Source: Qipengyuania soli (GTDB lineage Bacteria > Pseudomonadota > Alphaproteobacteria > Sphingomonadales > Sphingomonadaceae). Taken from it: DNA of 64,000 nucleotides. The position numbers and the translations under genes are program-made. The notes beneath the pieces were generated by a model. That model worked only from the letters and a program-made list of their open reading frames with translations. It searched no databases and had not been told where the DNA came from. Shown piece after piece: positions 20,103-34,828 of this stretch (its first letter is position 1; the number at the start of each line of letters is the position of its first letter). The DNA lies in assembly GCF_015529805.1 (NCBI RefSeq), contig NZ_CP064654.1, positions 1,860,001 to 1,924,000 on the forward strand, given 5' to 3'.

Positions 20103-20881
20103 CAGTTACCTCCTCGTGAGGCGAGCGCGGCAGACCCGCGCGATTGGGACGGCGCGGCAGCTCGCTCCGGCCCGGTGTTGACGAGCAGTGCGCGATCCTT
20201 GCCGGAACGCAGCACGATGGTCCGCGGCACGCCATCGACCACGATGGTATCGCCGCGCACGGTGAAGTTGACAGGTCCTTCGACGCCGTCGGAATTGGTG
20301 ACGAGAATCGCGGGCACCTCCTTGCCTTCCGGCCAAGTCAGGAAGGTCGCGGTGCCGTCGTCGAAGGTATTTTCCGGCAGGAGGCCGGGATCGCCAGAGG
20401 CATTCCAGGCAAAGTTGAGGTCCGACGGGTCGACCGTCATGATCTGCTGGGCAGGTGCGTCGGGCTGGCTTGCCGGCGCATTGGCCGCGAGCTGTTCCTT
20501 GGGCTTTTCGGGCTCCGGCGGATAGTTGAAGCGCAGCACGTAGAGCGGCTTCGCGGTCGGGCTGGCGATCAGGTCGAACAGGTAGGTGTGCTTGTTGGTG
20601 ATCACCGTCATGTTGGTCGCAGCACGTGCTTCCAGCGGCTTCACGAACAGGATGTTGGCGCGCTTGTTCGGCGTCACCTGCCATGCCTGGCTGTCACCGA
20701 TGGCGACGTTCTCGATCGCCTCGTCCTCGCCGAACACGATCGAGGCCTGCACGGCCACTTTTCCGTCGACGCGCACGATGCGCATGTCGTCGTACATCAC
20801 CTCGACGAGGCGGGGGTCCTTGGCGAGGGCCGGCGTCGCCAGCAGCCCAAGGGCGAGCGCGGGTATGATCGCGCGGTTCAT
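20102..20881 (-). CDS. virB9: VirB9/TrbG-family core protein
   Basis: A 259-residue periplasmic protein with a signal peptide (ALGLLATPALA|KD), an N-terminal beta domain and a C-terminal TrbG/VirB9 domain containing TFLTWPEGKEVPAILV. It forms the outer-membrane core ring with VirB10; the usual lipoprotein partner VirB7 is not encoded here. A Pro/Ala linker separates the domains. It overlaps virB6 upstream by one base and virB10 downstream, so there is no room for virB8 or virB7. Confidence 0.92.
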   Translation of the reverse strand: MNRAIIPALALGLLATPALAKDPRLVEVMYDDMRIVRVDGKVAVQASIVFGEDEAIENVAIGDSQAWQVTPNKRANILFVKPLEARAATNMTVITNKHTYLFDLIASPTAKPLYVLRFNYPPEPEKPKEQLAANAPASQPDAPAQQIMTVDPSDLNFAWNASGDPGLLPENTFDDGTATFLTWPEGKEVPAILVTNSDGVEGPVNFTVRGDTIVVDGVPRTIVLRSGKDRALLVNTGPERAAAPSQSRGSAALASRGGN

Positions 20882-22050
20882 CAGCGTTTCTCCACAGTAC
20901 GGTCGAGGGCCTTGGGCGGGGCGGGCTTGAAGCGGCTGCCGATCCCCATTGCCCGCGACGGGCCCGAATTGAGCGGTGTCACCTGACCGCTGCCTGAAGC
21001 GGTGGCGAAAACCTTGGTGGTGCGCGTCGTCGAACCGCCCGCGCCGTCATTGGCGGCGGCGGCGGTCGGGACGGCGGATACGTCGATCCGGCGTGCGGCG
21101 GAACTGGCCTGGTTGGCGACCTGGGCCTGGGCCAGCGCGGCGGAAGGGGCCGCGGCGGCCACGGCCGGGGCCGAAGAGCCGGACTTCTCTTCCTTGCTCG
21201 ATGTGAGGCCGAAGACGGTCCAGCCCGACACCATGGCACCGGCAACCTTGAGCACCAGCACCATCAGCGCGACATGCACCGCGCCGACCATGAAGAAGCC
21301 CATCGCCGCCTGCGGGTTCACCTGCCCCGGCGTGGCGGTCAGCTGGCCGAGGATCGGCACGGCCAATTCGAGCATCACGCTGCCGCCGAGTACCGCGAAA
21401 AGCGGCGCCAGAGCACACATGACGAGCCCCTTCACCCAGCCGGTGAACAGGCCGCGCGTGCCATTGAACAGCGCCATCACCACGAAGATTGGACCCAGCG
21501 CGACCAGCACGCCCAGCGCGATCTTGGTCGTTACCAGCAGGCCGACGGTGCCGAGCATGAACAGCATGGCACCGAGCCACATCATCCCTTCGGGCGAGAA
21601 GGCGGAGAACTCCTCGTTCCCCCCGCTCGCCTCCTGGATCGCGAGGAAGACGACGTCGATCTTCTGCGCGAAGACCTGCGTCGCGCTGCCGCGCGTTCCG
21701 GTGAGGATGCCCGCGAGGTAGTCGGGCGTGCCGATGGCAAGGTTCCACACGAAGCTCTGGTAGGCGAGCCAGCTGGTCGCGAACATCAGTACGATGCCCA
21801 GTGTCGCCATGCGCGGCACCAGCGAGCGGACGCCGACATTTGTGCGGCCGGTCAGCAGCGCGAAGCCGAACATTGCGACATAGAGCGTGAGGACGATGGT
21901 CAGTACCGTGCCGAGCTGACCGCCGGGCGCGAACAGGCGACCGAAGGCGGCGGCCGAAGCCTCGCCCGCGACGCAGTCGACGCCCTTCAGTGCGGCGGCG
22001 ATGCCGTTACCGACCTCCTGGGCCGCCTGCTGGCAGTTGGCGCTGGTCAT
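20881..22050 (-). CDS. virB6: VirB6/TrbL-family inner-membrane channel protein
   Basis: ATG 22050 (MTSANCQQAAQEVGNG) overlaps the virB4 stop (ATGA) and gives 389 residues. Several long hydrophobic helices lie between about residues 40 and 280, for example VLTIVLTLYVAMFGFALL and VGLLVTTKIALGVLVALGPI, followed by a polar, Ala-rich cytoplasmic or periplasmic tail. VirB6 forms part of the inner-membrane passage for the substrate. Confidence 0.88.
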   Translation of the reverse strand: MTSANCQQAAQEVGNGIAAALKGVDCVAGEASAAAFGRLFAPGGQLGTVLTIVLTLYVAMFGFALLTGRTNVGVRSLVPRMATLGIVLMFATSWLAYQSFVWNLAIGTPDYLAGILTGTRGSATQVFAQKIDVVFLAIQEASGGNEEFSAFSPEGMMWLGAMLFMLGTVGLLVTTKIALGVLVALGPIFVVMALFNGTRGLFTGWVKGLVMCALAPLFAVLGGSVMLELAVPILGQLTATPGQVNPQAAMGFFMVGAVHVALMVLVLKVAGAMVSGWTVFGLTSSKEEKSGSSAPAVAAAAPSAALAQAQVANQASSAARRIDVSAVPTAAAANDGAGGSTTRTTKVFATASGSGQVTPLNSGPSRAMGIGSRFKPAPPKALDRTVEKR

Positions 22051-24476
22051 TCTGCGGCAAGGCCGAGGGTCTCGACCCCCGCCTCCTCGATGTCGTTCGC
22101 CCCGCCCGGCCATGCGGTGCCGGTAAGCGCGGGGAACCAGTCGGCAGGCGCGTCGCCCAGCGCATCTCGCAGCAGGTCGAGGCGGCGCACGGTGCTCTCA
22201 CGACCCGACAGCAGCGTCAGGACCTCGGGCGCACCCGAGAGATCGAGGCGCACCACGACGCTCGCATCGGGCTGGCGGACGAGGAAGCAGCGGCTGTGCG
22301 CAGGCAGCGTGCGGATGAGCGCGAGTTCGTGCTCGGTCAGGCCGAAACCGTCGCAATAATCCTCAGGGCGCGCGCGGGAGTTGGGCATGAAGACCATGGT
22401 CGCCGTCTGCTCGACCAGCGCGGTGGAGATGCGGCTTTCCAGCGCGTCGCGGGCGCTCTGCGTGGCGAACCCGACCAGTGCATTGCGCTTTCTCAGCGTC
22501 TTGAGCCAGTCGCGGATGCGGGCGGCGAAGACCTCGTCGTCCAGCGCCTTCCAGCCTTCGTCGATCAGGATCATCGTCGGCTTGCCGTCGAGACGCTCCT
22601 CGATGCGGTGGAAGAGGTACATCATCGTCGGCGTGCGCAGGCGCGGGTTCTCGAGCAGCGCGGTCATGTCGAAGCCGAGCACGCGCGCGGTCAGGTCGAG
22701 CCGGTCCTCGGCATTGTCGAACATCCACGCATGCTCGCCCTCGCCGATCCACGCGCCGAGGCGGTCGGACAAATCGCCCGGCTGCGGGCGACGGGTGCCG
22801 GAAAGGAGCTCGCGGAAATTGCGCAGGCGGCGCAGCGACGGGTCGTTGGCATAGGCCGCGTCGACAGCACCCGCGATGGTCTGCTCTTCCTCCGGACCAT
22901 TGGCCTTGAGCAGCACGCCCAGCCAGTCGCGCAGGAAGGCGCGGTTGGTCGGGGTGTCGGGCAGCGCGAGCGGGTTGAAGCCGGTCGGCTCGCCCGCGCG
23001 GATGCTGTCATAGCGCCCGCCGATGCCGCGCACGAACAGCTCGGCGCCGCGATCCTTGTCGAACAGGATGGTGCGGGGGCTGAACTTCTGTGCCTGAGCG
23101 GCGAGGAAGTTCATCACCACGGTCTTGCCCGAGCCCGAGGGCCCGATGACCGAGAAATTGCCCAGGTCGCCGTGGTGGAAGTTGAAGAAGAACGGGGTCG
23201 CGCTGGTGGTTTCCAGCAGCGTCACCGCCTCGCCCCAATGGTTGCCCTGCGCTTGGCCGAGCGCAAAGCCGTGGAGTGAACCGAAGCTCGCCATGTTGGC
23301 GCTGGAAATCAGCGCGCGGCGGACGAGGTAGCCCTCGTTGCCGGGGAACTGGCCCCAGAAGGCGGGTTCGAGATTGGTGTCCTCGCGTACCGCGATCGCG
23401 CCGGTATCGGCGAGCGCGGCGGCGCAGGCGGCCATGGCATCGTCAAGCCGACCGAGGTCCCGTTCCTTGACCATGACGGTCAGGTGATGGTCGCCGAAAC
23501 CGACCGCCCCGTTACCCAGCGCATCGCGCGCGGCCATCATGTCGGCACGCTCGGCAGCAGCTTCCTCGTCCGCGGACTTGAGGCGGCGAATGGCGAGGTC
23601 CATCCGCTCGCGCGCGGTCTGGCGCTCGGTCGGGGCGTAGCTTTCGCTCACCACCATTTCGAACGGCAGGCGCAGCAGGCTGTCGAGCAGGCCGGGCGAG
23701 GTTGCTTCGGGATAATCCTTGAGGCCGAGGATGGCGGCGAAATCGGGCGAGCCCGAACCGCGCAGCTCGATCGCGTCGAGGCCGAAGCTGACCCGGCGAT
23801 AGGGCAGCATGTGGCCCACATCGACATCGTCGGCGGGCTTCCTGACCGGACGCATCTCGCCATTATAGAGCGCCGAGAGCAGTTCGAGCATTTCCGAATT
23901 GGTATTGCCCTGCGGCCCGACGTAGTCGGTCAGCGGCGTGGCGCCATAGGCCTGCAGCGCGGCGACCAGCCCTTGCGAGGCGGCGCGCAGCGAGCGCAAG
24001 TCCTTGGGATCGGCCTCCAGCTGCGGGCGGCCCTTCTTCTTCCAGCCCTTGCTGACACGCTCGACCAGGCCCGCCTTGCCGCGTGCGGGTCGACGGATCA
24101 GGGTAATGAACTGGTCGTTGACGAAGAGCTGGCCAGAGCCCAGCCGCTCGCGCCAGCGCGCGTCGATGTGGCGGCTGATGGGATCGGGGAACTGCGATTC
24201 CAGCTCAACCGAAACGCGGCGGCGGATGACGTGATGGTAGAGCACGAAACGCGCGTCGAGCGTGGAGCGCAGCACCACCTCGCGCGTCGCAGCGTGGGCG
24301 TTCAGCGCCTCGCTGTCCTCGGTCTCAAACAGCAGGCCGGGGACCTGGATCGCGGTCATCACCGACCCGTCGCGCAGCAGCAGCGTGCTCTCGTCGATCA
24401 GGCGCGCATAGGGCAGCCGGTCGCCCGCGCGCGCTTCCTTCGCGCTCCAGGCCGCTGCTCCCTTCCACTTGCTCAT
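22047..24476 (-). CDS. virB4: VirB4-family secretion ATPase
   Basis: An 809-residue VirB4/CagE ATPase of normal length. It has an N-terminal membrane-associated domain (YARLIDESTLLLRDGSVM), Walker A VIGPSGSGKTVVMNF in the middle, Walker B TMILIDEGWKALDD and the later FATQSARDAL. It powers pilus assembly and substrate transfer. It directly follows virB3 and overlaps virB6, so virB5 is absent from its usual place. Confidence 0.95.
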   Translation of the reverse strand: MSKWKGAAAWSAKEARAGDRLPYARLIDESTLLLRDGSVMTAIQVPGLLFETEDSEALNAHAATREVVLRSTLDARFVLYHHVIRRRVSVELESQFPDPISRHIDARWRERLGSGQLFVNDQFITLIRRPARGKAGLVERVSKGWKKKGRPQLEADPKDLRSLRAASQGLVAALQAYGATPLTDYVGPQGNTNSEMLELLSALYNGEMRPVRKPADDVDVGHMLPYRRVSFGLDAIELRGSGSPDFAAILGLKDYPEATSPGLLDSLLRLPFEMVVSESYAPTERQTARERMDLAIRRLKSADEEAAAERADMMAARDALGNGAVGFGDHHLTVMVKERDLGRLDDAMAACAAALADTGAIAVREDTNLEPAFWGQFPGNEGYLVRRALISSANMASFGSLHGFALGQAQGNHWGEAVTLLETTSATPFFFNFHHGDLGNFSVIGPSGSGKTVVMNFLAAQAQKFSPRTILFDKDRGAELFVRGIGGRYDSIRAGEPTGFNPLALPDTPTNRAFLRDWLGVLLKANGPEEEQTIAGAVDAAYANDPSLRRLRNFRELLSGTRRPQPGDLSDRLGAWIGEGEHAWMFDNAEDRLDLTARVLGFDMTALLENPRLRTPTMMYLFHRIEERLDGKPTMILIDEGWKALDDEVFAARIRDWLKTLRKRNALVGFATQSARDALESRISTALVEQTATMVFMPNSRARPEDYCDGFGLTEHELALIRTLPAHSRCFLVRQPDASVVVRLDLSGAPEVLTLLSGRESTVRRLDLLRDALGDAPADWFPALTGTAWPGGANDIEEAGVETLGLAAE

Positions 24477-24494
24477 TACAAAGACCCTTCCCGC

Positions 24495-24779
24495 TCAGGC
24501 TGCATAGGAATTGCACCCCCAGCGCTTGTAGTTCGCGACGCGCGGGCACTTCGAAACCTTGGTGATCCAAAGGTCGAAGATGCGCGGTTCGCGCAGGCAG
24601 GCGAAATAGCCGATGCCATGCATGACCACTGCAGCCAGCAAGGCGAGCCAGCTGCCGGTGATCAGGAATATCTCGGTCGTCACCATCCCGTTGATGATGA
24701 AATAGTTATATGTCACCCCCGCGAACATCTGCGGGCGGGTGAGCGCACGGTGGACGGGATGGCGGACGAGGTTCGTCAT
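24495..24779 (-). CDS. virB3: VirB3-family inner-membrane protein
   Basis: A 94-residue protein of the VirB3 type: a short N-terminal part (HPVHRALTRPQMFAGV) and two hydrophobic stretches (YNYFIINGMVTTEIFLITGS and LALLAAVVMHGIGYFACL), then the conserved-looking DLWITKVSKCPR region. It works with VirB4 in pilus biogenesis. It is one codon after virB2 and 18 nt before virB4. Confidence 0.9.
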   Translation of the reverse strand: MTNLVRHPVHRALTRPQMFAGVTYNYFIINGMVTTEIFLITGSWLALLAAVVMHGIGYFACLREPRIFDLWITKVSKCPRVANYKRWGCNSYAA

Positions 24780-24781
24780 GG

Positions 24782-25084
24782 TCAGCCCGCCGCGACGCCC
24801 TGGATGCCGGCGACGATCGAGGCTGCACCGAACAGGATGAAGACGCCGATGATCACGGTCGCGCCGAAGCGCCAGTTGAGGCGGCCGGTCAGCATCATGA
24901 AGCCGACGGCGGCGACCGCCATCACTGCAACCGCGGTGGCGACATTGCCCAGCAGCGTGCCCTGCAACCAGCCGAGCGCGGCGACGATCGGGCCCGAACC
25001 GGCGGGATCGGCTGCCTGCGCGAAAGCGGCAGACGGGGTTGCAAGCAGGGCCATCACGGCCGGAATCGAAATCGAACGCTTCAA
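24782..25084 (-). CDS. virB2: VirB2/TrbC-family pilin
   Basis: A 100-residue major pilin. The start is TTG 25084, supported by GGGAG nine bases upstream and by the Lys-Arg signal peptide it provides (MKRSISIPAVMALLATPSAAFAQ). After cleavage, two hydrophobic helices (about 42-67 and 74-95) separated by a basic loop match the TrbC/VirB2 plan. It lies between virB1 and virB3. Confidence 0.88.
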   Translation of the reverse strand: MKRSISIPAVMALLATPSAAFAQAADPAGSGPIVAALGWLQGTLLGNVATAVAVMAVAAVGFMMLTGRLNWRFGATVIIGVFILFGAASIVAGIQGVAAG

Positions 25085-25090
25085 GTGAAT

Positions 25091-25720
25091 TTACTCCCGT
25101 GAGTGGTCGGCAAGGCGGCCCATGATCGAGGCCACGTAAAGCTGTGTTTCGCGGATGCGCGGAATGCCGCCGGCCTTTTCGACGCGGCCGGGTCCGGCAT
25201 TATAGGCGGCAAGCGCCTTTTCGAGATCGCCGTCGAACCTGTCGAGCTGTTCGCGCAAATAGCGCGCCCCACCCTCCAGGTTGGCGAAAGGATCGTCTGC
25301 ATTGACGCCAAGGTCGCGCGCCGTGCCCGGCATGAGCTGGGCAAGTCCGCGTGCGCCCACCGGCGAGACGGCCGAAGCGCGCCAGCGGCTCTCCTGCCAG
25401 ACCAACGCCTCGATCAGTGTCGGGCTGAGGTCGAAGCGGGCAGAAAGTTCGGCGACCTTGGCCTGGTAGGCTGCGGGAACCATGCGCGACTGAATCGCCG
25501 GATCGGCAACCGCGAAATCGGGGACGAAGACGTCTGCCGGTACCTCGCCAAAGGTCTCGGATTCGATAGCTGTCATGTCGACGTGCGTCGTCGCGGGGCT
25601 CCCGCCGGCTATCCAGCGTGCTCCGTCAGCATCTATCTCCATGACATCCGCCTTTGCAGGAAAGGCGGCCAGCGTTGCACAGGACAGACCCATAGCGAAC
25701 GCCAAGCGTGCGAGAATCAT
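25091..25720 (-). CDS. virB1: VirB1-like lytic transglycosylase
   Basis: A 209-residue exported SLT-domain enzyme: signal peptide at residues 1-24, a linker, then VWQESRW with catalytic Glu110, GARGLAQLMPGTA and LAAYNAGPGRV. It would cut local peptidoglycan to let the secretion apparatus through. It is first in the virB order (B1-B2-B3-B4-B6-B9-B10-B11), with only 6 nt before virB2. Confidence 0.9.
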   Translation of the reverse strand: MILARLAFAMGLSCATLAAFPAKADVMEIDADGARWIAGGSPATTHVDMTAIESETFGEVPADVFVPDFAVADPAIQSRMVPAAYQAKVAELSARFDLSPTLIEALVWQESRWRASAVSPVGARGLAQLMPGTARDLGVNADDPFANLEGGARYLREQLDRFDGDLEKALAAYNAGPGRVEKAGGIPRIRETQLYVASIMGRLADHSRE

Positions 25721-26270: not shown

Positions 26271-26320
26271 CAGAACTCTCCCTTTGTTCGTTGAGGAGAG
26301 GAATATCGGTCGCCACCAGC

Positions 26321-26340
26321 AACTGCAACAAAACCGTAAC
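26321..26340. promoter_or_regulatory. Pho-box-like element, copy 1
   Basis: Twenty bases reading AACTGCAACAAAACCGTAAC, 17/20 identical to a second copy exactly 100 bp away. CTGCAAC and CCGTAAC are two 7-mers 4 bases apart (11-bp period), the layout of a Pho box (CTGTMAY repeats). It lies between divergent genes. PhoB binding is inference. Confidence 0.4.
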
Positions 26341-26420
26341 ATTGTCATATTTCTGAAACGTGGAGCTTCGTCGAACGGGCCAAGCGGGCATTTTTGCAGC
26401 TTGCCGGGGAATCCTGTTGA

Positions 26421-26460
26421 AACTGCAACATAACGGTCACGAACCGACAAAAACTGTCAC
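26421..26460. promoter_or_regulatory. Pho-box-like element, copy 2 with extra half-site
   Basis: AACTGCAACATAACGGTCAC (26421-26440) repeats copy 1, followed by CTGTCAC at 26454-26460. TCACGAAC occurs twice, 20 bp apart. The element is about 80 nt before the GTG start of the lipoprotein gene, consistent with an activator site for an OmpR/PhoB-type regulator. Confidence 0.42.
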
Positions 26461-26539
26461 GAACGGAGCCTAGCGGGCGAGTCGCGATCAACGAATTCGC
26501 GCTTCCGATTCACCCGGTTTTTTGAGGGGACCGTTACCC

Positions 26540-28108
26540 GTGACCAATCTTCATCGTTCGCTCGTTCTAGGCTGCAGCGCACTGGCCCTTGCCAGCTGTG
26601 GCGCCGACGAAATCGTTTCGCCGGGTACCGGCGGCAACATCACCATCAACAACCCGCCGGCCACGCCAACCCCCACGCCGACCCCGACGCCGACTTCGGC
26701 CCTGGTGACCCCGGCAGCCGGTTGCCCGACCATCTCGGACCCGCAGGGCCTGACCGATGGTGGCACCATTTCCGGTCCGACCGGCGAATACCGCATCTGC
26801 ACCATGCCCGCGCGCTTCAACGCCAGCTCGACCCTGCCCTACATCAAGGGCGTACTCTATCGCATGAACGGCCGCGTCGACGTGGGCACCGATGGTGGCC
26901 CTACCGCCACTGCGGCCGACACCAAGGTCAAGCTGACGATCGAGCCGGGCGCAATCATCTACGCCTCGGGTTCGAGCTTCCTCAACGTCAACCGCGGCAA
27001 CACGATCGCGGCCAATGGCACTGCCAGCCGTCCGATCATCTTCACCAGCCGCGACAACGTGCAGGGTCTCAACACCAGCAACTCGTCGGGCCAGTGGGGC
27101 GGCGTCGTCCTCTCGGGCCGCGCTCCGGTCACCGATTGTATCGCCCCGGGCGCGACGCCGGGCACCACGGCCTGCGAACGCCAGGTCGAAGGCGCGGCGC
27201 AGCCGGCCCTGTTCGGCGGCGCGACGGCGAACGACAACTCGGGCAGCATGTCCTATGTCCAGATCCGCTACTCGGGCTTCGTCCTTTCGGGCGACAGCGA
27301 GCTCCAGTCGCTGACCACCGGCGGCGTCGGATCGGGCACCACCCTGCACCACATCATGAGCTACAACAGCTCGGATGACGGCGTCGAATTCTTCGGCGGC
27401 CAGTTCAACGTTGCCAACCTCATCGTGGTCGGCGCGGAAGACGACGGTCTCGACACCGACACCGGCGTGAAGACCAACATGCAGTTCGTCCTCGTGGTCC
27501 AGCGTCCGAACACCGGCGACACGATGATCGAGGCAGACTCGACCAACGCCCTCGAAGAAAACACGCCGCGCCAGAACACGCGCATCTCGAACGCGACCTT
27601 CATCGCCAACAGCGGCGTGAAGGACCAGGCGATCCGCCTGCGCGGTTCGACCGACTATCGCATCATGAACTCGATCATTGTCGACAAGTCGGGTTCGACC
27701 CCGTGCCTGCGCGTCGATGGCACCAACACGCTGAGCCGTGCGGCCGATGCCGGCCTCGACGAGGCTGGACCGGTCCAGTTCGACAGCTTCGTGATGGATT
27801 GCGCGACCGACTTCCGCGACAGCTCGGGCGGCGTCACCGCCGCGGCGATCCAGACCCGCTATGAAGCCGGCACCAACAACAATGCCAACTTCACCAACAC
27901 GCTGACCATGACCTACCTCAACGGCGCCAACGAAACCGCCGTTCCGGTGTTCGATCCCACCTCGCTCTCCAGCTTCTTCGTGCTCCCGACCTCGATCGGT
28001 GCCGTCTACGCCGGCAACGCGACCTGGGTCGAAGGTTGGACCTGCAACTCGCCCACCGCCGGCTTCGGCTCGGTGACCGAGTGCACCACCCTGCCGGTCT
28101 ACTCCTGA
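26540..28108 (+). CDS. Outer-membrane-type lipoprotein with beta-helix-like repeats
   Basis: GTG 26540, with GAGGGGA (26524-26530) upstream, gives 522 residues. The lipobox LASC places the lipidated Cys at residue 20. A short (PT)n linker at about 37-51 follows, then a long Gly/Asn/Ser-rich domain with beta-helix-like segments (LTIEPGAIIYAS, RPIIFTSRD, GQWGGVVLSGRAP, NSSDDGVEFFGG, AEDDGLDTDTG). It has no obvious catalytic set. Proteins of this shape occur beside TonB receptors in Caulobacter/Sphingomonas relatives; a surface ligand-binding partner of the next gene is inferred. A strong hairpin separates the two genes. Confidence 0.75.
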   Translation: MTNLHRSLVLGCSALALASCGADEIVSPGTGGNITINNPPATPTPTPTPTPTSALVTPAAGCPTISDPQGLTDGGTISGPTGEYRICTMPARFNASSTLPYIKGVLYRMNGRVDVGTDGGPTATAADTKVKLTIEPGAIIYASGSSFLNVNRGNTIAANGTASRPIIFTSRDNVQGLNTSNSSGQWGGVVLSGRAPVTDCIAPGATPGTTACERQVEGAAQPALFGGATANDNSGSMSYVQIRYSGFVLSGDSELQSLTTGGVGSGTTLHHIMSYNSSDDGVEFFGGQFNVANLIVVGAEDDGLDTDTGVKTNMQFVLVVQRPNTGDTMIEADSTNALEENTPRQNTRISNATFIANSGVKDQAIRLRGSTDYRIMNSIIVDKSGSTPCLRVDGTNTLSRAADAGLDEAGPVQFDSFVMDCATDFRDSSGGVTAAAIQTRYEAGTNNNANFTNTLTMTYLNGANETAVPVFDPTSLSSFFVLPTSIGAVYAGNATWVEGWTCNSPTAGFGSVTECTTLPVYS

Positions 28109-28118
28109 CCTGCGTGAA

Positions 28119-28155
28119 GGCTGCGGGGCGCGCTCCACGGACGCGTCCCGCAGCC
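28119..28155 (+). terminator. Strong intercistronic hairpin (weak terminator or attenuator)
   Basis: A 14-bp stem, GGCTGCGGGGCGCG (28119-28132) with CGCGTCCCGCAGCC (28142-28155) and a 9-nt loop. It is followed only by TCATTCCATTTT, not a clean T tract. It may reduce read-through from the lipoprotein gene into the receptor gene or protect the upstream mRNA. Confidence 0.55.
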
Positions 28156-28226
28156 TCATTCCATTTTAAGCGGGCCTAGCGCCCGACCCGAGTTTCACAG
28201 ACCTGATCATGAGGGGGTCTTTCGAC

Positions 28227-30977
28227 ATGTCGACCGGCAAGCGGCTCTCCGCGCTGCTCCTGTTCACCACCGCGCTTTGCGCTCCCGGCATCGCCTTTGC
28301 ACAGGACGCCGCACCCGACACCGGCGCCGAGGGCGTTCCGCCCGAGGAAGACGCCGCGACCGACGCCGCGCTTGCGGACCAGGCCGAAGGTGTCGAGGAC
28401 ACCGCGCAGGACGAGGAAGCCTACGAGCAGCCTGAAGTCTCGGTCCCGGGCGGCGCCATCGTCGTCACCGGCCGCCGCCGGCAGGACATCACCCGCGCCT
28501 CGACGCAGGTCGTCTCGGTACTCGACACCGCCGCCATCGCGCGGACCGGTGAAGGCGACATCGCCGGCGCGCTGACCCGCGTCACCGGCCTGTCCACCGT
28601 CGGCAACGGCCTCGTCTACGTCCGCGGTCTCGGCGATCGCTACTCGCTGGCGCTGCTCAACGGCCTGCCGCTACCCTCGCCCGAGCCGCTCAGCCGCGTG
28701 GTCCCGCTCGACATCTTCCCGACCAGCATCGTGGCCTCGAGCCTCGTGCAGAAGACCTATTCGGCGAACTTCCCGGGCGAGTTCGGCGGCGGCGTGATCA
28801 ACCTCACGACCCGCGCGGTGCCCGACGAAGCCTTCGTCAAGATCAGCGCCGGCATCAGCGGCGACGGCGAGACGACCTTCGGCCCCGGCTACACCTATTT
28901 CGGTTCGGACTACGACTGGTTCGGTTTCGACGACGGCAGCCGTGACGTGCGCCCTGCCCTCCAGAGCTTCCTCGACAGCGGCCTCAACATCGAGGACCCC
29001 GATGTCGACAAGCAGGCGATCCTCAAGGAACTGGGCGATCCCAACCTCGTCCTGTTGCAGAAGATCAGCGACCTGCCGGTCAACATCTCCGGCGGCATTA
29101 CCGCCGGCACCGCGTTCGACGTGTTCGGCGACGGCCGCCTTGGGGTCATCGCCACCGCCTCGATCAGCAACAAGTGGCGCAACCGCTACATCACGCAGCA
29201 GACCGCCGCGAGCACCGACCTGTCGCTCGACACCGATGCGCGCGATTTCGTCACCGACAACCGCGTGCTGGTCAACGCCATGCTCGGCTTCGGTCTCGAG
29301 GTCGGCGAGCACCGCTTCCGCCTGACCAACCTCTACATCCGCGACTCGCTCAAGCAGGCCTCGCTCGAACAGAGCGAGGACTTCCAGAACGGCGATACCG
29401 ACCTGACGCAGAACACCGCATGGTACGAGCGCCAGCTGATCGACACGCAGTTCACCGGCGAAATGAAGTTCGGAGACATCTCGGTCGACCTGCGCGGCGG
29501 CTATGCCCAGACGCAGCGCGAGGCGCCTTACGAGTGGACCTTCCGCTACTCGCGCTCGAACAATGCCGCCGATCCCTATGGCGACCTGTTCCTCAATACG
29601 CTCGATCCGCAGCGCGGCGGCGCGATCGTCGCCTTCTCGGACCTGACCGAAGACCTCTATTACGGCGGTCTTGACCTCAGCTACCAGGCGACCGACTGGC
29701 TCGGCGTCACGGTCGGCGGTGCCTATACCGACACCAGCCGCCTTTCCGAACGTCGCGAGTTCGATATTCGCGCAACCGGTGCATATCCCGACGTCTTCGG
29801 TGCTTTCCGTCCCGATGCACTCCTCGGCGGTGCACTGATCGACCTTGGCTTCGATCCTTCAGCACAGCAGGCCGCCGGCCTCGGACCGTTCAGCTACACG
29901 ATCTTCGACACCACGGGTTCCGACCCCGCGTTCGAGGCGGGGCTGGAGATCAAGGCCGGTTACGTGAAGGCGCAGGTCGCGCCGATCGAAGGGCTCTCGC
30001 TCGACGTCGGTGTGCGTTACGAGGACGCGACGCAGGAAGTCGTCCCGCTCGGCCTCGACGGCAACCCCAGCGGTTCGTCGAACAACACGCTGCTGGCCAA
30101 CGACTACTGGCTGCCCGCGGCGACCCTCACCTGGGAAATCGCCGACAGCCTGCAGGCGCGTTTCAACGCATCGAAGACCATCGCCCGTCCGCAGTTCCGC
30201 GAGCTGATCTTCCAGACCTACTACGATCCGGAAACCAACCGCCGCTTCAACGGCAACCCGCTGCTGGTAGACAGCCGCCTGACCAACTACGAGGCACGCC
30301 TCGAATACTACTGGGGTTCGGGCAGCCGCGTCAGCCTTGCCGGGTTCTACAAGGACATCAGCAAGCCGATCGAGGTCTTCTCGAGCTTCTCGGACAACGA
30401 GCAGGTCTCGGGCTTTGCCAACGCCCCTGCTGCACAGCTCTACGGCACCGAGTTCGAGATGCAGTGGAACAAGGACCTGTTCGACCTTGGCGACTGGTGG
30501 GAGAGCAAGCGCTTCGTTGCCGTGCTCAACTACACCTACACCCAGTCGAAGCTGAAGGTGACGGCGAACGACACTGCTTTCGTCTTCCCCTCGGCCCCGC
30601 AGCCGGCGACGAACTACTTCCGCGACGGCGTGCCGCTCACGGGACAGTCGGACCACCTGGTCAACGTCCAGCTGGGCATCGAGGATCTCGACAAGGTCAG
30701 CCAGGCAACCTTCCTCGTCAGCTATGCGAGCAAGCGCGTGACCAGTCGCGGCACCTCGGGCCTGCCCGACATCCTCGAGGATCCGGGCCTGCGCCTCGAC
30801 TTCGTCTACCGCCAGGGCGTCGAACTTTTCGGGACCGATGTGGAACTGAAGTTCGAAGCCCGCAACCTCACCGGTCGCGACCACTTCGAATACCAGGACA
30901 ACGGCGACAACCGGATCGAGATCAACAGCTACGACGTCGGCCGTAGCGTCAGCGCATCGGTTTCGATCGAGTTCTGA
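28227..30977 (+). CDS. TonB-dependent receptor paired with the beta-helix lipoprotein
   Basis: A 916-residue receptor. ATG 28227 is favoured over ATG 28209 because GAGGGGG (28211-28217) sits at the right distance. It has a signal peptide (CAPGIAFAQ|D), an acidic Glu/Asp/Ala-rich linker (about 26-70), the TonB-box-like AIVVTGRRRQD, a plug with VRGLGDRYSLALLNGLPLPS and YSANFPGEFGGGVINLTTR, and a barrel ending VSASVSIEF. The plug style matches receptors of the Caulobacter/Xanthomonas oligomer-uptake type. Ligand unknown. Confidence 0.92.
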   Translation: MSTGKRLSALLLFTTALCAPGIAFAQDAAPDTGAEGVPPEEDAATDAALADQAEGVEDTAQDEEAYEQPEVSVPGGAIVVTGRRRQDITRASTQVVSVLDTAAIARTGEGDIAGALTRVTGLSTVGNGLVYVRGLGDRYSLALLNGLPLPSPEPLSRVVPLDIFPTSIVASSLVQKTYSANFPGEFGGGVINLTTRAVPDEAFVKISAGISGDGETTFGPGYTYFGSDYDWFGFDDGSRDVRPALQSFLDSGLNIEDPDVDKQAILKELGDPNLVLLQKISDLPVNISGGITAGTAFDVFGDGRLGVIATASISNKWRNRYITQQTAASTDLSLDTDARDFVTDNRVLVNAMLGFGLEVGEHRFRLTNLYIRDSLKQASLEQSEDFQNGDTDLTQNTAWYERQLIDTQFTGEMKFGDISVDLRGGYAQTQREAPYEWTFRYSRSNNAADPYGDLFLNTLDPQRGGAIVAFSDLTEDLYYGGLDLSYQATDWLGVTVGGAYTDTSRLSERREFDIRATGAYPDVFGAFRPDALLGGALIDLGFDPSAQQAAGLGPFSYTIFDTTGSDPAFEAGLEIKAGYVKAQVAPIEGLSLDVGVRYEDATQEVVPLGLDGNPSGSSNNTLLANDYWLPAATLTWEIADSLQARFNASKTIARPQFRELIFQTYYDPETNRRFNGNPLLVDSRLTNYEARLEYYWGSGSRVSLAGFYKDISKPIEVFSSFSDNEQVSGFANAPAAQLYGTEFEMQWNKDLFDLGDWWESKRFVAVLNYTYTQSKLKVTANDTAFVFPSAPQPATNYFRDGVPLTGQSDHLVNVQLGIEDLDKVSQATFLVSYASKRVTSRGTSGLPDILEDPGLRLDFVYRQGVELFGTDVELKFEARNLTGRDHFEYQDNGDNRIEINSYDVGRSVSASVSIEF

Positions 30978-30997
30978 TCCCGTCAGGCTTCATGAGA

Positions 30998-31025
30998 GAA
31001 GGGCCGTCCGCAAGGGCGGCCCTTC
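30998..31025 (+). terminator. Hairpin terminator after the TonB receptor
   Basis: Near-perfect stem GAAGGGCCGTCC (30998-31009) with GGGCGGCCCTTC (31014-31025) and a GCAA tetraloop. The T tract is weak, but the position right after the stop codon supports a terminator. Confidence 0.7.
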
Positions 31026-31159
31026 GTTGTTACGCTTTTCCTAGCACGTAATCCTGCTGTTTGATTCGCCCCAAACCAGCTGCGGAAGAATCTGGATTCG
31101 AACGCCACCGCATGGTAGGATTTCGGTCTGGTCGCCTCCTGCGTTGAGGGAGACTCGCG

Positions 31160-32941
31160 ATGCCGCACACCTCCAGACTTTTCGCCGTCTTGCTTGCCAC
31201 TCTTGCCTCTGGCGGAGCGTCGGCGACAATTGCGGAGACCGCACTATCACGGGAGGCTTTCGCCGCCCTCGATCCCACCGCGCCCGGCAGGAACGCCTGC
31301 AGGGCTGGAAACGGATCCAGTGAGGTTCTCGATGCGCGGCTTCGCCTGGCCCAATCGCTGGCCGAAGAGCGTGGTTTTGGCACCGCATCGATAGGATTGT
31401 ATTCGGGGATCGGCCGCTCGGATTTTCCCGCATCGAAGATGGACCCACAGGCTCGGCGCTATTTCGATCAGGGTCTCGCCTTTGCTTACGGCTTCAATCA
31501 CGAAGCCGCCATCCGTTCGTTCAAACGTGCCCAGGAACTGGATCCGGATTGCGCGGAATGCTGGTGGGGCGAAGCCATGGCAAACGGTCCCAATATCAAT
31601 GCCGCTATGAGCGACGCGCAAAACTCCTCCGCCCTCGCCGCACTCGCCAGGGCTCAGCAACTGTCTGCCGCCTCCAACGACTTCACGAAGGCTCTGATTG
31701 AGGCGCAGGCGGTGCGATATTCGGCGGCCCCCGATGCCGATCGCGGCGCACTCGACCGGGGGTATGCGCAAGCCATGCTGCGGATTGCTGCAAATTACCC
31801 CGAAAGCGACGACCTCGCCGTACTTGCTGCGGAAGCGGCGATGAATACCAGCCCTTGGAACTACTGGAGCGACGAAGGCCAGCCCGTCCAGTTCATCGCC
31901 GAAGCGGTCGGACTGATCGAAAAGGTCATGGCACGCAATCCGAAGCATCCCCAGGCATCGCATCTGTACATCCACCTGCTTGAACTGCCACAGCCGGCCA
32001 AGGCGGAGGCAGCTGCAGATAGATTGCGGGCGAACAGTCCGACAGCACTCGGTCACCTGGTGCACATGCCGGCCCACATCTATTACCGCCTCGGCCGATA
32101 CCAGGATTCAATAGAGGCCAACATCAAGGCAGCCGCAGCGGACGAAGCTTACCTTCGCGAAGTCGGCGACGATGGCCTCGTGCGCTTCGGATACTATCCA
32201 CACAACGTGCACTTCTTGCTGACCTCGGCCCAGGCCATGGGTGACGTTCCGACGGTCGTGAACCAGACCGCAAAGCTTCAAAGCATTCTCGACGTCGAGA
32301 CAGGGCGAGAGCTCTATTGGGTCCAGGCGATCTACGCCGCCCCATATTTCGCCTTTGCGCAATATTCCTCGCCGGAAGCGGTGATCGCTCTCACGCGCAA
32401 GCCGCATCCACTCGAATACGTCGAGGCCATGCGCCATTATGCTCGTGCAATTGCTATCGCGCTCAAGCCCGGGCTCGGCGATTTCACTGCAGAGCTCGAT
32501 GCCATGCAGCAACTGGCGCGATCAGACAGCGCGAAGACGATGGAAGCAAACGGCTTTCCCGCTCCCCTGATCATCGACCTCGCGATGGAAGTGGCGAAAG
32601 GGCGAAAGGCACTCGCACAATCGCAATTCGAACAAGCGATCGCGCATTTCTCCAAGGCTCGAGAAATGCAGAAGCAAATCCCCTATAATGAGCCTCCGTT
32701 CTGGTATTATCCGGTCGATCAGTCGCTCGGCGCAGCATTCTACAAGGCGGGCCGCTTTGCCGAAGCGAAGAGCGCCTTCCGTGCTGCGCTCTTCGACGCC
32801 CCCAACAGCGCCCTGGCTCTCTATGGCCTTGCCCAGACCGAAGGAAAACTTCGAAACCGTCTGGAACAGATGGCGGCAGAACGGGCCTTCAGATCAGTGT
32901 GGCGAGGCGATACCGACTGGCCGGATCTAGGTCGGATTTGA
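31160..32941 (+). CDS. Secreted TPR-repeat protein of unknown function
   Basis: A 593-residue protein with a signal peptide (LASGGASA). TPR-like units are visible around ARRYFDQGLAFAYGFNHEAA, LGRYQDSIEANIKAAAAD, ALAQSQFEQAIAHFSKAREM and YKAGRFAEAKSAFRAALFD. A conserved-looking centre (HLVHMPAHIYYRLGRY) contains several His. Its base composition is a little less GC-biased than its neighbours. It is likely a periplasmic scaffold or binding protein; a specific role cannot be assigned. It has no operon partners. Confidence 0.7.
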   Translation: MPHTSRLFAVLLATLASGGASATIAETALSREAFAALDPTAPGRNACRAGNGSSEVLDARLRLAQSLAEERGFGTASIGLYSGIGRSDFPASKMDPQARRYFDQGLAFAYGFNHEAAIRSFKRAQELDPDCAECWWGEAMANGPNINAAMSDAQNSSALAALARAQQLSAASNDFTKALIEAQAVRYSAAPDADRGALDRGYAQAMLRIAANYPESDDLAVLAAEAAMNTSPWNYWSDEGQPVQFIAEAVGLIEKVMARNPKHPQASHLYIHLLELPQPAKAEAAADRLRANSPTALGHLVHMPAHIYYRLGRYQDSIEANIKAAAADEAYLREVGDDGLVRFGYYPHNVHFLLTSAQAMGDVPTVVNQTAKLQSILDVETGRELYWVQAIYAAPYFAFAQYSSPEAVIALTRKPHPLEYVEAMRHYARAIAIALKPGLGDFTAELDAMQQLARSDSAKTMEANGFPAPLIIDLAMEVAKGRKALAQSQFEQAIAHFSKAREMQKQIPYNEPPFWYYPVDQSLGAAFYKAGRFAEAKSAFRAALFDAPNSALALYGLAQTEGKLRNRLEQMAAERAFRSVWRGDTDWPDLGRI

Positions 32942-33026: not shown

Positions 33027-33701
33027 TCAATGCGAGTCGTAGACGTATCCCAGCGACCGCACCGTGCGCACGCGGTCGCCCGCGCCCATCGCCCTTAGCG
33101 CCCTGCGCAGGCGGCCGATCCACACGTCGACCGTGCGCTCGTCGATCGGCGGTTCCTGCTTGCCGAGGGCGGCGATGAGGTCGGCGCGGGTCAGGACGCG
33201 GTCGGGGTTCTGGGCAAAGAAGCGCAGCAGGCGGAATTCGTTGGGCCTCAAATCAAGCGCCCGCCCCGCCCAGCGCGCCTGGAGCGCGGCGGCGTCGATG
33301 GTGAGTTCGCCCAGTTCGAGGATTTCCGAAACGCTTGTCTGCGCCCCGCCCCATTGCAGCGCCATCACGCGGTCGAGCACGGCGGTGCGGTCGATGGGGC
33401 CGAGGATGTAGTCGTCCGCCCCGGCCTTCAATGCCCGCCGCTTGTCCTCGGCATCGTCCTCGTCGAGCACGATGGTGATATGCGCCTCGGCAGTGCGCTT
33501 GTCGGCACGCAGGCGGCGACACATCTCGAGGCCGGAGAGGTCCTCCATCACCCAGTCGACGAAGGCGCAGACGGGCCCTTCGACCAGCCGGTGCGGGCCG
33601 TCGGGGTAGAGCCGCGCAAAGGCATAGCGCGTCTCGCCATGCATGAAGTCGGTGATTTCTTCACCGAGGCGGTCAGTCAGGAAAATGTTTATGGCTTGCA
33701 C
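33027..33701 (-). CDS. OmpR/PhoB-family DNA-binding regulator with a degenerate receiver
   Basis: GTG 33701 gives 224 residues: a receiver domain (1-115) and an OmpR-type winged helix (about 132-222; LRPNEFRLLRFFAQNPDRVL and RTVRSLGYVYD). The phosphate-accepting Asp is kept (D49 in AFVDWVMEDLSG), but the switch Thr is replaced (VLDEDD), the invariant Lys is Gly (YILGPID, G101) and the N-terminal acidic pair is incomplete (LTDR). It may work without classical phosphorylation. No histidine kinase gene is adjacent. An 11-bp tandem repeat lies just upstream. Confidence 0.82.
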   Translation of the reverse strand: MQAINIFLTDRLGEEITDFMHGETRYAFARLYPDGPHRLVEGPVCAFVDWVMEDLSGLEMCRRLRADKRTAEAHITIVLDEDDAEDKRRALKAGADDYILGPIDRTAVLDRVMALQWGGAQTSVSEILELGELTIDAAALQARWAGRALDLRPNEFRLLRFFAQNPDRVLTRADLIAALGKQEPPIDERTVDVWIGRLRRALRAMGAGDRVRTVRSLGYVYDSH

Positions 33702-33745
33702 GCGGTTCGTATCCCACCCTGTCGGGTGAGCGATGGCGCAGTCAT

Positions 33746-33767
33746 GTGACTCGTTTGTGACCCGTTT
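33746..33767. promoter_or_regulatory. Tandem 11-bp direct repeat upstream of the OmpR-family gene
   Basis: GTGACTCGTTT (33746-33756) and GTGACCCGTTT (33757-33767) are head-to-tail with one mismatch. An 11-bp period is typical for binding of OmpR/PhoB-type winged-helix dimers. It is 45 nt upstream of GTG 33701, so autoregulation is plausible (inference). Confidence 0.5.
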
Positions 33768-33805
33768 GCCCGGATTGTAACACTCGGGCCGAATTGGGCG
33801 ATTTT

Positions 33806-34828
33806 CTATTCGTGGACGCGGCTGAGCGTCCAGTTGCGCGGGGCTGTCGAGGCGATGCCTACCGGGTTCTTCGGCACGTAGGGCGCCTCGAGCCTCGCGA
33901 CTTCCTCGTCCGTCAGGCCGAGGTCCATGGCAGCGACGGCGGCAGCGATGTGCCCTTCCTTGGTCGCGCCGATGATCGGGGCGGTGATGCCCTTGGCGAA
34001 ATGCCACGCCAGCCCCACCGTCGCGCGCGATACCCCGCGTTCCGCAGCGATCGCACCGACCGCATCGATGATGGCGCGATCGGCATCTTCCTGCTGGCGG
34101 TAGAGCAGCTTGCCGAAGCCGTCGGTCTCACTGCGCACCGTCGTCTCATCCCAGGCGCGGGCGAGCTTGCCGCGGGCGAGCGGGCTCCACGGGATGAGGC
34201 CCACGCCCTGGTCATGGCAGAGCGGGATCATCTCGCGCTCTTCCTCGCGATAGAGCAGGTTGACGTGGTTCTGCATCGAAATGAAGCGGGTCCAGCCGTT
34301 GGCGCGCGCGACCTCCTGTGCCTTCGCGAACTGCCAGGCGGCCATCGACGAAGCGCCGATGTATCGCGCCTTGCCCGCCTTCACGATGTCGTGCAGCGCC
34401 TCCATCGTTTCCTCGATCGGCGTCGCATCGTCCCAGCGGTGGATCTGGAACAGGTCGACGTAGTCCATCTCCAGCCGAGCAAGGCTGTCGTCGATCGCCT
34501 GGAACAGGCTCTTGCGCGAATTGCCGCCGGTGTTCGGCGCCTGCCGCCAGGGGAGGAAGGCCTTGGTCGCGAGCACGATCTCGTCGCGCCTGGCGAACTC
34601 GGGAAGGAGCTTGCCCATGACCTCTTCGGACGCGCCCATCGAATACATATTGGCGGTGTCGAAGAAGTTGATCCCGGCCTCGACCGCCTCGCGGATGAAG
34701 GGACGCGACTGTGATTCGTCGAGCACCCAGTCGCCGTGCCAGCCGCGGGTGGTGTCGCCATAGCTCATGCAGCCGAGGCACAGGCGCGAGACCTTGAGGC
34801 CGCTGGGGCCGAGATTGACGTATTCCAT
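33806..34828 (-). CDS. Aldo/keto reductase
   Basis: A 340-residue AKR with the catalytic pattern FFDTANMYSMGASEEVMG (Asp and Tyr), the Lys in LATKAF and the His in LFQIHRWDDATP, plus the C-terminal NADPH-binding PIIGATKEGHI. It reduces aldehydes or ketones; the substrate is unknown. It is last in a four-gene minus-strand operon after the SDR gene. Confidence 0.88.
   Translation of the reverse strand: MEYVNLGPSGLKVSRLCLGCMSYGDTTRGWHGDWVLDESQSRPFIREAVEAGINFFDTANMYSMGASEEVMGKLLPEFARRDEIVLATKAFLPWRQAPNTGGNSRKSLFQAIDDSLARLEMDYVDLFQIHRWDDATPIEETMEALHDIVKAGKARYIGASSMAAWQFAKAQEVARANGWTRFISMQNHVNLLYREEEREMIPLCHDQGVGLIPWSPLARGKLARAWDETTVRSETDGFGKLLYRQQEDADRAIIDAVGAIAAERGVSRATVGLAWHFAKGITAPIIGATKEGHIAAAVAAMDLGLTDEEVARLEAPYVPKNPVGIASTAPRNWTLSRVHE

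Follow-up and report, generated by a model that had tools for sequence, protein, structure and literature searches.

When starved of phosphate, Caulobacter crescentus is described as producing ElpS (CC_0170), a lipoprotein anchored at the cell surface; ElpS carries the lipobox LAGC at residues 17-20, and its gene is followed by that of the receptor CC_0171 and then by gspC-N (PMC2996285). According to the same account, the type II secretion system is needed for release of ElpS, not for its surface display, and the authors pointed out that elpS and CC_0171 occur together and that Shewanella and Bacteroides have homologues (PMC2996285). The published Caulobacter PhoB regulon lists the type II system together with TonB receptors (PMC11208175). 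In Flavobacterium johnsoniae, the low-phosphate-inducible lipoproteins FI, FII and FIII, modelled as polygalacturonase-like, are reported to match the low-phosphate lipoprotein of Caulobacter with 31-36% identity over a coverage of 50-54%; the gene for FI shares a low-phosphate cluster with that of a TonB transporter, FI makes up 18.7% of the exoproteome, and FII is found with phoBR (PMC8115612). Here we analyse a lipoprotein gene and the TonB-dependent receptor gene behind it in Qipengyuania soli, within a stretch of 64,000 nucleotides (positions 1,860,001 to 1,924,000 of NZ_CP064654.1; hereafter the window), and propose that the pair serves the uptake of a phosphorus compound at the cell surface.

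The window lipoprotein resembles ElpS in its lipobox at residues 17-20 and its size of about 50 kDa, and, as with CC_0171, a TonB receptor gene stands next to it. Taking ElpS from its published description, and judging by size, by where the lipobox lies and by the order and neighbourhood of the genes, we conclude that the two genes appear to form an ElpS-type pair, a kind already known, and that the pair is real and very probably functional. Caulobacter's published order recurs in Phenylobacterium (locus L102), where the lipoprotein, the receptor and matches to GspN/C-type, GspD and GspE proteins follow in turn; the lipoprotein of this syntenic locus is 42% identical to that of the window. The order lipoprotein, receptor, type II genes is also found in Xanthomonas, Kordiimonas, Sphingomonas and others.

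Linkage was assessed in two samples: 61 genomes (that of Q. soli, 36 others of the genus and 24 of the order) and 80 named loci, the best of at least 588 confirmed stretches, in which the closest named relatives belong to Qipengyuania and Erythrobacter. The lipoprotein is present in 44 of the 61 genomes (35/37 in the genus, 9/24 elsewhere in the order). The initial annotation had placed it directly before a TonB receptor and proposed a survey of co-occurrence, and the survey agrees: 43 of these 44 genomes have a receptor gene next in line on the same strand, the sole exception (G037) having a contig that ends past the lipoprotein gene and a receptor match on another contig. A receptor likewise follows in 79 of the 80 named loci, the remaining one lying at a contig edge, and all 17 genomes without the lipoprotein are also without the receptor at E<=1e-10 (one, G013, is 75% complete). 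The two genes lie 118 nt apart in the window; across 79 named pairs the gap runs from 8 to 898 nt, with a median of 94 nt, and its largest value (L107) arises from an in-frame stop in the matched stretch. Relatives on plasmids account for 21 records, and six of the seven inspected have the receptor adjoining; in two Bacteroidota homologues inspected the receptor precedes the lipoprotein. Sets of ExbB, ExbD and TonB adjoin four of the 80 pairs (L117, L127, L134 and L135) and two plasmid pairs. This linkage supports the view that lipoprotein and receptor form one unit. Genomic separation and independent expression in relatives had been named beforehand as findings that would speak against such a unit; separation is not what the relatives display, whereas independent expression has been reported for Caulobacter elpS and cc0171, as discussed below.

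The link to phosphate comes from the region upstream of the lipoprotein gene. Alignment of 34 such regions from the genus revealed the blocks CTGCAAC-AAAA-CTGTAAC, TTGTCAT-ATTT-CTGAAAT, CTGCAAC-ATAA-CGGTCAC and AACTGTCAC, followed by the ribosome-binding site. Upstream regions were scored against a Pho consensus and compared to dinucleotide shuffles (100 for loci, 50 for controls), with p<=0.05 as threshold; two of the 80 loci had no lipoprotein start and were dropped, and starts were set by rule, some visibly too early. Of the 78 named loci scored, 55 have a Pho-box-like site ahead of the lipoprotein gene, compared to 23 of 413 other upstream regions of the same loci (control regions, like the control gaps used below, were taken from mechanical, uncurated calls of open reading frames). 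For the window the best consensus score has a p of 0.01, and 22 of 35 genus loci reach the threshold. Before the receptor gene such a site was found in none of 79 cases, and in 4 of 76 when the gap alone was scored.

Genes of the phosphate response also lie near some of the pairs. A regulator at least 48% identical to PhoB is encoded within 8 kb in nine of the 80 named loci; eight of the nine were scanned, and all eight are PhoB above the curated cut-off. PhoR and PstS accompany such a regulator in L125, in L135 and on an Alteromonas plasmid. The Q. soli genome encodes PhoB above cut-off; it also has a PstS-type gene behind one unscanned gene, and upstream of this PstS-type operon stands the similar site CTGTCAC-ATTA-GTGTAAT-CTGC-CGGTCAT (consensus p 0.02). 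From these sites we infer that PhoB may control the promoter of the window's lipoprotein.

In Caulobacter type II genes follow the pair, whereas a scan of the Q. soli genome found no type II secretin GspD above cut-off. Among the 61 genomes GspD above cut-off is present in 15: all nine genomes of other families that carry the pair, five without the pair, and one of the 37 in the genus. In the other families it lies a few kb from the pair or (G037) on the receptor's contig; in the single genus genome (G009) it is on a different contig than the pair. GspD matches adjoin 16 of the 80 named pairs, upstream in one. Type II secretion was considered as the function of the pair in the genus and rejected, GspD being mostly absent. 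Type II genes beside the pair accompany elpS in Caulobacter and are not defining, since the published description counts in homologues from Bacteroides and finds display to be independent of the system (PMC2996285). Joint absence of the two genes, and persistence of the pair without type II secretion, suggest a conserved job at the cell surface; together with the tight pairing to one receptor, they favour transport at the surface over secretion.

On balance we think it probable that a PhoB-controlled surface lipoprotein captures a phosphorus compound for its own receptor. Low phosphate would lead PhoB to activate the lipoprotein promoter; the lipoprotein would be carried to the cell surface and held there by its lipid and a Thr-Pro linker; its beta-helix would bind a phosphorus-containing compound and, through a physical contact that we infer, pass it to the dedicated receptor, which would import it using TonB energy. 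The hairpin between the genes would end or thin transcription past the lipoprotein gene, leaving more lipoprotein than receptor. Low-phosphate induction and surface location enter this account from what is published for relatives, not from observation in the window.

Several points weigh against it. The Pho-box-like sites are calls by a consensus, CTGTCATNNNNCTGTCAY; the threshold of p 0.05 was missed by 23 of the 78 named loci and by 13 of the 35 from the genus, three loci (L073, L078 and L107) show nothing, and the scored loci are related to one another. The 80 named loci are a favourable sample because they are the closest matches, so that more distant linkage is less tested, and one Marinobacter plasmid copy has no annotated receptor nearby. 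Identity with ElpS and CC_0171 is drawn from gene order, size and lipobox position, not from direct alignment. Finally, the published Caulobacter account reports elpS as induced and cc0171 as constitutive by reverse transcription polymerase chain reaction, continued production of ElpS after deletion of cc0171, and no detected change in intracellular phosphate (all three as data not shown), and ties ElpS to phosphatase activity, not to transport (PMC2996285).

These expression data bear on the hairpin. A 14-bp stem had been claimed between the genes, and 14 of its 15 positions do pair. The surrounding 141 nt fold with a z of -3.4, none of 200 shuffles folding as well. A scan of 26300-31200 for inverted repeats of 12 nt or more, with arms no further than 60 nt from each other, found this hairpin and one other, after the receptor gene. 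Of the features of an intrinsic terminator the strong stem is there, with a weak T-run (CATTCCATTTTAAG in the window); the hairpin at 28118-28156 was absent from the output of a simple terminator scan. Because an alignment of the hairpin DNA failed to line the stems up, they were counted per sequence. A stem of at least 11 pairs is predicted within 80 nt past the lipoprotein stop in 66 of 79 named pairs, compared to 34 of 103 gaps taken as controls (p 5e-12 by Fisher's test, kinship ignored): 54 of 60 in alphaproteobacteria and 12 of 19 in gammaproteobacteria, classes being assigned from record titles. One locus (L006) was counted as stemless owing to the fold chosen on 80 nt, the hairpin being visible in its sequence. 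Folding of whole gaps gave a mean z of -3.1 for 76 pairs (three of the 79 were dropped for gap length, and 12 of the 76 are without an 11-pair stem) and of -1.3 for 30 controls. In the genus the stem is predicted in 33 of 34 loci, with a mean identity of 49% over the opening 12 nt of the 5' arms; the predicted hairpin is kept in position, not in sequence.

We prefer to read this hairpin as a putative leaky terminator that would give lipoprotein in excess of receptor; complete termination, with the receptor gene transcribed from a second promoter, ranks close behind because of the Caulobacter report of independent expression. The two genes would then be neighbours with promoters of their own and the hairpin would set no ratio, a serious possibility whose chances we put a little short of even. 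An induced elpS beside a constitutive cc0171 (PMC2996285) fits a full terminator as well, and across the 79 named pairs the nine positions after the stem hold 3.5 T against 1.9 expected, as in intrinsic terminators, and control gaps with such stems give much the same figure (3.4 in nine). The gap is short (in the window the start lies some 70 nt past the stem), which leaves limited room for a second promoter, and the weak T-run also argues against complete termination.

The lipoprotein itself accords with most of what the initial annotation had read from it. It was called lipidated, and LASC at residues 17-20 reads as a lipobox of the signal-peptidase-II type, confirming that observation overall; the claimed (PT)n stalk is the linker TPTPTPTPTPT. 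Its description as Gly/Asn-rich holds in so far as the two residues are mildly enriched (18.5% of the mature part), but threonine is the commonest residue. The proposed beta-helix stands as a prediction: an AlphaFold2 model from 25 sequences has a predicted local distance difference test score (pLDDT) of 81.4 and a predicted template modelling score of 0.83. Foldseek returned no match to this model at E<=0.001, and the fold became clear only through re-alignment to 508 of the 510 top Foldseek chains, which gave parallel beta-helices (best Z 22.8 over 277 residues at 3.2 A); the predicted fold is not that of SusD. The matches include tailspikes, alginate epimerases, lyases and NosD, no single beta-helix family being prominent. 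A fold held in common does not by itself reveal a function. Searches of the lipoprotein against Pfam and NCBIfam gave no family match at E<=1, and a search by sequence against solved structures gave a single chance-level match (E 1.9).

The fold nevertheless raises the alternative that the lipoprotein is a surface enzyme or helper which frees phosphate or sugars from polymers, the receptor importing the product, and that there is no binding cap. The beta-helix matches are mostly polysaccharide lyases, epimerases, hydrolases and tailspikes, nine acidic residues (E254, D279, D280, E283, D301, D302, D305, E331 and D333) are invariant in 21 diverse members, and phosphatase activity is reported to be higher on overproduction of ElpS (PMC2996285). 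Yet no enzyme family is matched at E<=1, and the beta-helix also occurs in NosD and adenovirus LH3; we consider an enzyme unlikely, if a good deal less so than the non-phosphorus ligand discussed below.

The stretch CGADEIVSPG of the lipoprotein (residues 20-29, window 26597-26626) begins at the lipid cysteine, and the linker behind it varies. The stretch itself is conserved, slightly altered, in Alphaproteobacteria and in Xanthomonas: at least 53 of 78 lipoproteins have SPG within 14 residues. Many gammaproteobacterial lipoproteins have CGGDIN in its place; it could be a surface-export signal. The Q. soli genome encodes one Slam-type (SlipAM) protein, which might conceivably export the lipoprotein. 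Besides the lipid cysteine and that of the signal peptide, eight cysteines lie in residues 62-515; in an alignment of 25 relatives seven of them never vary and the eighth hardly does, which suggests up to four disulfides. The number of domain copies per lipoprotein ranges from one to three among relatives. In L048 (Sphingomonas) and L109 (Stakelama) a segment matching the C-terminus precedes the rest, as if by circular permutation or as a remnant of a double-domain form. In L107 (Xanthomonas arboricola) the in-frame stop falls inside the lipoprotein match and suggests a broken copy.

The second gene was correctly called a TonB receptor: PF07715 (Plug) and PF00593 (barrel) are matched above the Pfam cut-off, and its other Pfam and NCBIfam matches are confined to an outer-membrane barrel and further TonB-receptor models. 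The AlphaFold2 model (pLDDT 83.1) has the TonB-receptor fold and is 10-14% identical to solved TonB receptors, none prominent among the 50 matches listed; by sequence no solved structure is matched at E<=1. The longest open reading frame starts at 28209; the start at 28227, also implied by the initial annotation, is favoured because relatives begin MSTGK and a GAGGGGG site lies at 28211-28217. Import of a metal or other non-phosphorus ligand, the phosphate link being incidental, would suit the nearest solved receptors, which include siderophore, citrate, haem, PQQ and B12 transporters, but is improbable given the Pho-box-like sites, the PhoB neighbours and the published low-phosphate induction.

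Among transporters that carry a surface lipoprotein, the pair had been likened to SusD/SusC. The likeness, shared with PusC/PusD, extends to a surface lipoprotein adjoining a TonB transporter and is an analogy only: the window lipoprotein is a predicted beta-helix, and the receptor has no match to the carboxypeptidase-like N-terminal domain of the SusC family. Membership of SusCD was rejected, as no SusC or SusD family was matched in Pfam or NCBIfam at E<=1. The wider interpretation stands in part: a TonB receptor and a lipoprotein whose fold differs from that of SusD go together as a unit, and the ratio that the hairpin was proposed to set is a putative effect. The initial annotation did not bring up ElpS, phosphate or the Pho-box-like promoter. 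In BtuB/BtuG of Bacteroides a TonB transporter is likewise complexed with a non-SusD surface lipoprotein, and such chains are among the matches to the receptor; there, however, the ligand is vitamin B12, and BtuG is a beta-propeller. Flavobacterium FI is alike in being a low-phosphate lipoprotein with a TonB transporter, and FI-FIII differ in gene order, to judge by the two Bacteroidota homologues inspected.

Table 1. Features of the lipoprotein-receptor locus (positions of the window).
Feature	Position	Strand	Basis or detail
Pho-box-like repeats CTGCAAC-4-CCGTAAC, then TTGTCAT-4-CTGAAAC	26323-26359	+	Consensus score, genus alignment
Second Pho-box-like stretch CTGCAAC-4-CGGTCAC with conserved AACTGTCAC	26423-26460	+	Alignment, score
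Ribosome-binding site GAGGGGA of lipoprotein gene	26524-26530	+	Conserved, genus upstream alignment
Lipoprotein, probably ElpS-type	26540-28108	+	GTG 26540 to TGA 28108, 522 aa
Lipoprotein parts			Signal peptide and lipobox, residues 1-20; TP linker, 42-52; predicted beta-helix, ~57-465
GC-rich terminator-like hairpin	28118-28156	+	Arms 28118-28132 / 28142-28156
Second small stem CGGGC/GCCCG before receptor gene	28171-28185	+	Fold
GACC...GAGGGGGTC at receptor ribosome-binding site, self-pairing	28200-28219	+	Fold, genus gaps
TonB-dependent receptor, partner of the lipoprotein	28227-30977	+	Pfam, fold, linkage
Inverted repeat after receptor gene	30998-31025	+	Inverted-repeat scan

Two further elements of Table 1 may bear on expression. 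GACC...GAGGGGGTC, exact or slightly altered, recurs in the majority of gaps from the genus, where its folding could cover the ribosome-binding site of the receptor gene, and the inverted repeat past the receptor gene is a possible end of the two-gene unit.

Directly past the receptor lies a gene for a tetratricopeptide repeat protein (31160-32941, +); its product found no match at 1e-8 past the receptor of any named Erythrobacteraceae locus. Beyond it, a response regulator on the opposite strand (33027-34007, -) has PhoB as its best NCBIfam match, at 141.9 bits against a cut-off of 296.2 and with the start of the model missing; in many named Erythrobacteraceae loci convergent regulators 26-34% identical to PhoB lie shortly past the receptor. 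Upstream of the pair, 20881-25720 (-) presumably holds type IV secretion-like genes (a VirB4-sized ATPase, a lytic transglycosylase).

ElpS-type proteins are widespread and little understood, and are thought to aid phosphorus gathering under scarcity; one of them is reported as the most abundant exoprotein of F. johnsoniae at low phosphate (PMC8115612). Four points are new as far as the literature examined shows: that the pair occurs without type II secretion, how tightly by count its members are linked, the statistics on Pho-box-like sites, and a hairpin conserved by position. Tentatively, and with the odds rather against so broad a statement, the pair may exemplify a further kind of lipoprotein-capped TonB transporter beside the SusD and BtuG types: a PhoB-controlled parallel beta-helix cap for phosphorus compounds, shared by Proteobacteria and Bacteroidota. 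Each cap would comprise one to three beta-helix repeats, and the proteobacterial pairs would add a hairpin kept by position and not by sequence, giving an excess of cap over channel. If this is true, the genus shows a minimal, surface-only form without type II release. A surface transport function would in itself make the pair a direct genetic test, in harmless marine and freshwater bacteria, of the passage of phosphorus compounds across the outer membrane.

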